Source: an archaeon (GTDB lineage Archaea; Thermoproteota; Nitrososphaeria; Nitrososphaerales; UBA183). Taken from it: a DNA stretch of 10,967 bases. The notes under the pieces are model-generated. The model saw nothing but the letters and a program-made list of their open reading frames with translations. It had not been told where the DNA came from and made no database searches. Shown in pieces: positions 6,807-7,296 of this stretch (position 1 is its first letter; every line of letters starts with the position of its first letter). The position numbers were made by a program, and so were the translations under genes. The stretch lies in contig JAKAPI010000021.1 of NCBI GenBank assembly GCA_021807225.1, positions 1 through 10,967 on the forward strand, read 5' to 3'.

Positions 6807-6817
6807 CACTTAAAGTG
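6807..6817 (+). promoter_or_regulatory. TATA box of the fluoride operon
   Basis: CACTTAAAGTG contains a clear CTTAAA box in an 11-base palindrome. The predicted start lies about 25-27 bases on, at 6837-6839, exactly where the riboswitch begins. The symmetry could also serve a repressor, but CTTAAAG is partly symmetric by nature. Confidence 0.65.
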
Positions 6818-6838
6818 CCGATGCACGCTGGCCATTTC

Positions 6839-6890
6839 GGCGGTGAAGCTCGCCATAACCGCTCGTGCTAAACGAGCCAATAGCTTCTAC
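6839..6890 (+). ncRNA. Fluoride riboswitch aptamer (crcB motif)
   Basis: The segment follows the crcB-motif plan piece by piece. Stem P1 is GGCG (6839-6842) with CGCC (6851-6854), enclosing GUGAAGCU. Then come the A-rich joint AUAACC (6855-6860), the stem GCUCGU (6861-6866) / ACGAGC (6872-6877) with loop GCUAA, the joint CAAU, and AGCUUC-UAC (6882-6890). AGCUUC pairs perfectly with GAAGCU (6845-6850) as the pseudoknot. The order and the terminal UAC match the Thermotoga petrophila aptamer as I recall it. It sits just upstream of the fluoride channel gene, as in other members. This is a pattern call, not a covariance search. Confidence 0.88.
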
Positions 6891-6912
6891 CAAAACATCA
6901 AGCGAGCGGTTG
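6857..6912 (+). promoter_or_regulatory. Possible expression platform: alternative stem over the crcB start
   Basis: AACCGCUCGU (6857-6866), which contains the aptamer joint and the 5' arm of its second stem, can pair with GCGAGCGGUU (6902-6911) over 10 bp (nine Watson-Crick and one G-U). The right arm includes the first two bases of the TTG start (6910-6912) and the bases just before it. Forming this stem would break the aptamer, so fluoride binding should free the start codon. Confidence 0.55.
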
Positions 6913-7296
6913 AAAGTGAGATACGACCTGTTGTACGTGGCAGTGGGAGCCGTCCTAGGAGCGACTCTGCGCTATTTCATCACGAGCAGGAGCATCTTCT
7001 GGGGGAGCCTCCCTCTCTCCGTCCTCACGGTGAACATAGTTGGCAGCCTCATCCTAGGCATCTCAATGGCAGCGGTCCAGAGGCTAGGCCTGGGAAGCGA
7101 CTTCGTCCTCTTTCTCGGCATCGGGTTCTGCGGGGCCTTCACCACGATGTCATCGCTCGCGTTCGAGTCGGCGAACCTGATGGACGCAGGAATGTTCATC
7201 ACGGCCGCCGCTGACATAGGGTTGAACATGGGACTCTCGCTGGCGGTGATCTTCGTAGGTAGGGCGCTGGTCTTCCTGGTTGCGGGAGGCGGCTAA
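6910..7296 (+). CDS. crcB: Fluoride channel, CrcB/Fluc family
   Basis: A 128-residue membrane protein that exports fluoride passively; Fluc channels work as antiparallel dimers of four-helix subunits. Signatures: GAVLGATLRYF with conserved Arg21 (13-23), LTVNIVGSLILGI with pore Asn42 (39-51), GFCGAFTTMSS (72-82), and four hydrophobic segments (about 6-25, 36-57, 66-84, 97-125). The Phe-box positions read Met80 and Leu83, where TTFSTF is usual. TTG 6910 is chosen because GTG 6865 would start inside the riboswitch; GTG 6916 is the alternative. The ribosome binding site is weak (GAGCGG), fitting control by the upstream RNA. It heads an operon with the DUF190 gene 3 bases on. Confidence 0.93.
   Translation: MKVRYDLLYVAVGAVLGATLRYFITSRSIFWGSLPLSVLTVNIVGSLILGISMAAVQRLGLGSDFVLFLGIGFCGAFTTMSSLAFESANLMDAGMFITAAADIGLNMGLSLAVIFVGRALVFLVAGGG

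Follow-up and report, generated by a model that had tools for sequence, protein, structure and literature searches.

The window analysed here, a 10,967-nt stretch of an archaeal contig (JAKAPI010000021.1, forward strand), carries a fluoride riboswitch aptamer directly upstream of a crcB fluoride channel gene, and the question it raises is how the aptamer might control that gene. The original prediction was that the aptamer core can pair with the crcB start codon. We examined this pairing in the window, in relatives of the same family, and across the order and the phylum.

Aptamer, promoter and gene start

A covariance search (cmscan) with the Rfam models places the RF01734 fluoride riboswitch at 6830-6896 on the plus strand with 37.9 bits (E 1.1e-7, model positions 1-64), above the gathering score of 34 bits, and RF01734 is the sole Rfam match in the window at E values up to 1. 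The original prediction had called for this search and had staked itself on a score above threshold. It had also named the parts of the crcB motif, and a base-by-base check found every pairing where it had been placed. The aptamer extends from the first P1 base to the terminal UAC (6839-6890). The P1 hairpin (6839-6854) is formed by GGCG 6839-6842 and CGCC 6851-6854, and within it the pseudoknot 5' strand GAAGCU (6845-6850) pairs with the pseudoknot 3' strand AGCUUC (6882-6887), which is followed by UAC 6888-6890. The AACCGC core and the P3 5' strand together occupy 6857-6866, with GCUCGU 6861-6866 pairing the P3 3' strand ACGAGC at 6872-6877. In an alignment of 15 leaders (the window, 13 family loci and L090), 99.6% of the 240 cells of P1, P3 and pseudoknot are paired; the four P1 pairs are invariant in 15/15 sequences and all six pseudoknot positions pair in 15/15. 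The covariation score of the aptamer pairs was reached by 0/500 shuffles. By covariance score 6839-6890 is a fluoride riboswitch, which presumably binds fluoride.

The aptamer lies in the 5' leader of crcB (PF02537). A TATA-like promoter element, CTTAAAG, is found at 6809-6815 on the plus strand, 29-30 nt upstream of where the aptamer begins. Among 171 archaeal aptamer loci, TTTAWR-like elements are commonest at 29-31 nt upstream of the first P1 base, and 16/18 loci of the window's clade (defined below) have a 5/6 or 6/6 match to TTTAWR at 29-34 nt. In archaea an element at this spacing places +1 near the first base of the aptamer, so transcription would begin near 6839, in line with the original prediction.

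The crcB gene (FluC family, Pfam PF02537, E 2.2e-20) is assigned to 6916-7296 on the plus strand, with a GTG start favoured by a start position common to relatives. Among the 11 family genomes with both aptamer and crcB (including G068, whose leader is identical to that of G002), 10 have ATG, GTG or TTG at the position of GTG 6916, and G053 has CTG. The TTG at 6910-6912 is a possible but less likely start, and besides the window G001 and G053 are the sole family loci that have it in frame. Judged from these homologues, crcB probably starts at GTG 6916 rather than at TTG 6910. A start inside the aptamer (a 143-aa ORF from GTG 6865) was rejected as a gene-caller artefact because translation of the aptamer accounts for its extra N-terminal residues. 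CrcB predictions 143 and 150 aa long (window 6865-7296; P0002, P0012) seem to begin inside the riboswitch, probably through wrong start calls. The closest named CrcB homologues belong to Nitrososphaerota (P0004, P0008). Downstream on the plus strand, and probably in the same operon, are genes with Pfam matches to DUF190 (PF02641, 7300-7629) and PhoU-like DUF47 (PF01865, 7644-8291). By eye, ORFs like these two follow crcB in L001, and a DUF190-like ORF follows it in L006.

A conserved alternative helix

The contested strand AACCGCUCGU (6857-6866) pairs with GCGAGCGGUU (6902-6911) over 10 bp, as the original prediction held. The full helix joins UAACCGCUCGU (6856-6866) to the partner strand GCGAGCGGUUG (6902-6912, plus strand) in 11 bp including a terminal U-G pair, 6856/6912. 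Its stacking energy is about -21.4 kcal/mol; here and in the swap and strand tests below we used approximate Turner 2004 values, and fold energies were computed with ViennaRNA. This strength was reached by 3/5000 dinucleotide shuffles of the 28-nt leader end (6891-6918, through the GTG start) and by 1/5000 mononucleotide shuffles; of 7141 unshuffled 28-nt segments from both strands of the window, with the leader surroundings left out, 6 reached it. P3 and the alternative helix both use 6861-6866 and are therefore mutually exclusive, and this part of the original prediction also stands.

RF01734 was searched in 46 genomes of the family, of which 13 have a match and 7 exceed the cutoff. The aptamers occur at 15 places, representing 14 distinct loci, and a partner giving 8-13 bp through CCGC is kept at 13 of the 14. 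The exception, L121 (genome G044), lies before a Na+/H+ exchanger gene and has an aptamer without such a helix. The original prediction was to be abandoned if relatives kept the aptamer and lost the pairing; that happened at this one locus, and the pairing was retained at the others. A protein search found crcB in 12/46 family genomes, 11 of which have aptamer and partner. The single family crcB without an aptamer (L009, genome G008) also lacks the partner. The family, which contains G001-G006 and G008, includes Candidatus Gagatemarchaeum stordalenia (L008, genome G007).

Within the 15 aligned leaders, linkers differ in both sequence and length, and partner positions 6904-6909 are invariant in 15/15; changes at 6902 and 6903 all preserve pairing, and 6902-6909 are paired throughout. 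The position 6866/6902 occurs as U-G, C-G and U-A. The contested strand forms 114 Watson-Crick and 6 G-U cells with the eight partner positions (120 cells); against its P3 mate the 90 cells divide into 77 Watson-Crick, 12 G-U and 1 mismatch. The outer A-U pairs are poorly kept, 6857/6911 in 5/15 leaders and 6858/6910 in 12/15. The alternative pairing is real and conserved in the family. The original prediction expected the complementarity to be kept with compensating changes; it is kept, and within the family compensation is scarce, with one of ten pairs changed on both sides and the covariation score reached by 93/500 shuffles. We rejected within-family covariation as proof of the helix, which varies too little for such a test. 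Compensation is stronger between distant clades than inside the family.

Near-invariance of GCGAGCGG in the family, its Shine-Dalgarno distance from the start and its scant covariation would also fit a crcB translation or protein-binding signal that matches the aptamer core incidentally. We consider this unlikely, though it is the best placed of the alternatives weighed here. GCGAGCGG is missing at the crcB gene without an aptamer, and GCGAGCGG or ACGAGCGG is kept after aptamers that have no crcB downstream (L122-L124). The window has a single copy of the sequence and the loci of eight relatives (6.5-10.4 kb) have 0-3 copies per strand, counts that include the leader copy and the aptamer core. 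We also take its lack of likeness to GGAGGUGA to count against a translation signal, and in distant clades a different P3 goes with a different partner.

Captured strands across the order and the phylum

In the order, 85 of 400 genomes have an RF01734 match at E 0.001, and 71 exceed the cutoff; in the phylum, 75 of 398 have a match at E 1e-5, and 72 exceed the cutoff. Four weak matches (L171-L174) and one duplicate (L113) were left out of the 105 first matches, and 171 distinct loci were compared, window included. Within the order set, the 18 loci that carry the motif GGCGG[TA]G[AG] were taken as the clade, without reference to the helix; they comprise the 14 loci of G002's family, L090, L164, L165 and the window; the motif is absent from all phylum-only loci. 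Downstream complements of three aptamer strands (core/P3, the tail formed by the pseudoknot 3' strand and UAC, and the P1 3' strand) were tested separately against shuffles at p 0.05, a level at which about 5% of loci are expected to pass by chance. Four loci whose core falls outside the script pattern (L121, L155, L159, L224) were counted as not significant for the core.

In the window's clade the core/P3 helix is significant in 16/18 loci and the P1 3' strand in 3/18; a downstream complement of the pseudoknot 3' strand is significant in 0/18, window included. L165 fails the core test and has a different 12-bp helix. The rest of the order shows another pattern, with the tail significant in 75/82 loci, the core in 13/82 and the P1 3' strand in 5/82. 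In the rest of the phylum, core/P3 is significant in 20/71, the P1 3' strand in 14/71, the tail in 13/71 and none of the three in 31/71.

The tail helix elsewhere in the order is formed by UGUCUACC or UGCCUACC with GGUAGACA or GGUGGGCA. The order's platform shares the aptamer family, a similar promoter spacing and a helix just before a start-like codon with the window's platform; the difference is that it captures the pseudoknot strand and UAC, and the window's captures the core. In taking the pseudoknot strand it resembles the bacterial expression platform (as described in an excerpt of PMC11077080). An ATG lies within reach in 66 of the 75 tail-helix loci, 1-2 nt after the helix in 37 of these 66 and beginning inside it in 8. 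At two order loci with this layout, L158 and L159, the start opens crcB. The first start codon after the tail helix (the first ATG, else TTG or GTG) opens a frame of at least 116 aa in 39/62 order loci and of at most 59 aa in 23/62. The ATG beside the tail hairpin is thus not always a gene start, which leaves a translational reading of the tail platform unsecured for many loci. Direct start-codon occlusion may occur elsewhere, for instance among tail-helix loci.

Core/P3 helices of different sequence recur in the phylum: UCUAACCGCCUC/GAGGCGGUUAGG (7 loci, variants included), AACCGCCCUU/AGGGGCGGUU (4 loci, variants included), UUAACCGCCC/GGGCGGUUAA and CGCUUAUCCC/GGGAUAAGCG. In several distant groups the layout departs from that of the window, in that the partner is placed within the opening codons of the predicted gene. 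Beyond CCGC on the P3 side, 30 own pairs extend 3.5 bp as against 1.0 bp in 604 between-group swaps, and with a re-optimised register 10/5040 group permutations do as well as the own pairing; the groups were picked for having the helix, and both figures overstate the support. On the joining side, own and swapped pairs are equal at 2.2 bp. A test on unselected loci found the own leader to pair more strongly than 25 swapped leaders do on average at 118/171 loci (Wilcoxon 2e-10). In a matrix of swaps between groups, 4/11 groups have their own leader as the best column.

The P1 3' region bears on another reading of the window, in which the partner pairs mainly with GCUCGC 6848-6853, a perfect 6-bp match to GCGAGC, and P1 and the pseudoknot would come open when fluoride is lacking. 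Two clade loci outside the family (L164, L165) have their best helix on the P1 3' or joining strands, and the 14/71 phylum loci noted above have significant P1-3' helices. The best helix is with core/P3 in all 15 aligned leaders, however, and in the window the core/P3 match is 4-5 bp longer than the P1-3' match. In two G130 loci the A of the partner fits the U of P3 but does not fit the C found in the similar stretch of P1. We regard P1 as an improbable main target, slightly behind the signal reading above, and retain capture of core and P3.

At L182, L196, L205 and L212, the P1 3' strand (CCCACC, CCCACCU or CCCACCUU) pairs with GGUGGG, GGGUGGG or GAGGUGGG downstream of the aptamer. This partner resembles a Shine-Dalgarno sequence and is a possible third platform.

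Several aptamers in the set precede genes other than crcB. In the order outside the clade, L093, L107, L135, L136, L144, L152 and others score 37-43 bits with RF01734 before long non-crcB ORFs, which by eye have a hydrophobic N-terminal stretch and were read for 293 aa, still open at the fetched end. A Pfam search of six such ORFs (L093, L107, L125, L135, L136, L152) matched only L136, to cupredoxin (PF00127). These loci may carry a variant of the aptamer that binds a different ligand, or may point to a fluoride regulon of unexpected content. Clusters of 6 and 8 riboswitch matches within about 20 kb occur at L125 (G185 C37, 54-73 kb) and at L126 and L127 (G281 C57, 26-48 kb), respectively. Riboswitches at L175, L176, L183, L190, L199, L208 and L210 precede prenyltransferase-toroid-like proteins; PF00432 was tested in L175 and L199, and the others are alike by eye. 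Divergent aptamer pairs about 100-120 nt apart were found at L114/L124 (G130 C55), L193/L206 (G529 C51) and L189/L209 (G544 C133). Pfam gave no match for the ORFs that follow L123, L124 and L206, read as 92-127 aa.

A proposed translational switch

Folding energies from ViennaRNA, which exclude pseudoknot, fluoride and magnesium terms, favour P1 with the alternative helix (-22.2 kcal/mol) over P1 with P3 (-16.2 kcal/mol), the comparison of folds that the original prediction had proposed. In RNA 6839-6945 the alternative helix has a mean probability of 0.95. With 30 nt more of coding sequence (6839-6975) this probability is 0.73, yet the minimum free energy fold keeps P3. In RNA 6839-6900, where the partner is absent, P3 has a probability of 0.997. 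The alternative helix reaches at least 0.92 in 13 of the 15 aligned leaders (L112 0.21, L118 0.03), so that without ligand the model defaults to the alternative fold in most leaders; before the partner is made, P3 reaches at least 0.78 in 12/15. The bases of GTG 6916 are unpaired with probabilities of 0.11-0.55 in the free fold versus 0.86-0.98 with the aptamer enforced. In the enforced fold, 6 of the 8 bases of 6902-6909 have an unpaired probability of at most 0.16 and TTG 6910 one of 0.01-0.04, as the partner strand and this TTG pair with early coding sequence and only the GTG opens. This enforced fold, with the partner still paired to coding sequence, counts against the switch proposed next.

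We think it likely that the leader is a fluoride riboswitch that switches crcB translation on by strand exchange between P3 and the partner for the contested core/P3 strand. Complementarity, conservation and stability were computed; fluoride binding, the strand exchange, the block to translation and the start codon are inferred. In the proposed sequence of events, transcription would begin at or beside the first aptamer base, as promoter spacing suggests, and the aptamer would fold first, with P1, P3 and pseudoknot. When fluoride is lacking, the later-made 6902-6911 would invade and take the P3 5' strand and the AACCGC core. The resulting helix, of 8-13 bp in the clade and 11 in the window, would occupy the mRNA 5-14 nt before GTG 6916, and by doing so would keep the ribosome from loading. 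Fluoride and magnesium would lock the aptamer, P3 would retain its strand, and the exporter would be made.

With GTG 6916 as the probable start, the predicted ligand-free helix covers the ribosome landing zone, as expected of a translational riboswitch, and not the start codon. TTG 6910 has two or three of its bases inside the helix, and direct start-codon occlusion was rejected as the main reading of the window since homologues start at the position of GTG 6916. From the original prediction of a start that is paired without fluoride and free with it, we keep the fluoride-on logic, which would follow from the exchange, and set aside the occlusion of the start codon itself.

An action on transcription or RNA stability, not ribosome loading, would find precedent in bacteria, whose crcB RNAs are often overlapped by predicted terminators; this comes from the account by Weinberg et al. 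2010 of the crcB motif in bacteria and archaea (excerpt of PMC2864571). By eye, neither the window nor the aligned leaders show a terminator-like hairpin with a U-run downstream of the partner, and a start position is conserved 4-12 nt after the partner's GCGG in 11 leaders (6 nt in the window; L118 has CTG there). We give this explanation a small chance. Regulation probably acts on translation, which fluoride would switch on. The least probable reading of all is a chance or artefactual helix beside another, unseen platform: the energy models omit pseudoknot and ligand and do not favour the helix in 2/15 leaders, but 3/5000 shuffles and 13/14 family loci speak against it.

The window shares P1, P3, pseudoknot, AACCGC core, UAC end and downstream crcB with the published crcB motif (RF01734); no difference was seen in the aptamer itself, and it is the downstream partner that differs. 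Like the transcriptional switches of Bacillus cereus and Thermotoga petrophila, as excerpts of PMC11077080 and PMC13273304 describe them, it would use fluoride-gated invasion by a downstream strand and be on with fluoride. There the invader takes the pseudoknot 3' strand and leads to a terminator, whereas in the window it takes the core and P3 5' strand and no terminator was seen. A published covariation model likewise treats pseudoknot and P4 as alternative stems (excerpt of PMC13273304). The Thermococcus switch is also archaeal, fluoride-inducible and, at least presumably, translational (excerpts of PMC8241225 and PMC11077080); both sources cite the 2018 archaeal fluoride switch of Speed et al. 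as translational or presumably so. A 2021 paper (excerpt of PMC8241225) singles out the Thermococcus fluoride riboswitch as the one natural riboswitch of archaea established experimentally, and the T. kodakarensis transcriptome contains an 86-nt crcB RNA (excerpt of PMC4247193).

The original prediction knew of no description of direct start-codon occlusion on a nearly leader-only archaeal message. A translational archaeal fluoride switch had already been reported, and what is new, by comparison with the published bacterial switches, is the strand captured: core and P3, in place of their pseudoknot 3' strand. Among the open-licence matches listed, titles and abstract openings described neither a core/P3-invading fluoride platform nor fluoride riboswitches of Nitrososphaerota.

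We lean, by a modest degree, toward a view of archaeal fluoride riboswitches as one aptamer with interchangeable translational off-switches, distinguished by the captured strand (tail, core and P3, or P1 3'), in which the window's platform would dismantle the ligand-binding core and not the pseudoknot. The set of 171 archaeal loci, many of them sortable by captured strand, makes such re-wiring of one aptamer to ribosome control testable. Switches of about 80 nt that seemingly start at +1 are compact enough to be offered for use in archaea. Expression platforms are usually held to be too variable to compare, and the results suggest that clade-wise complementarity may make them readable.
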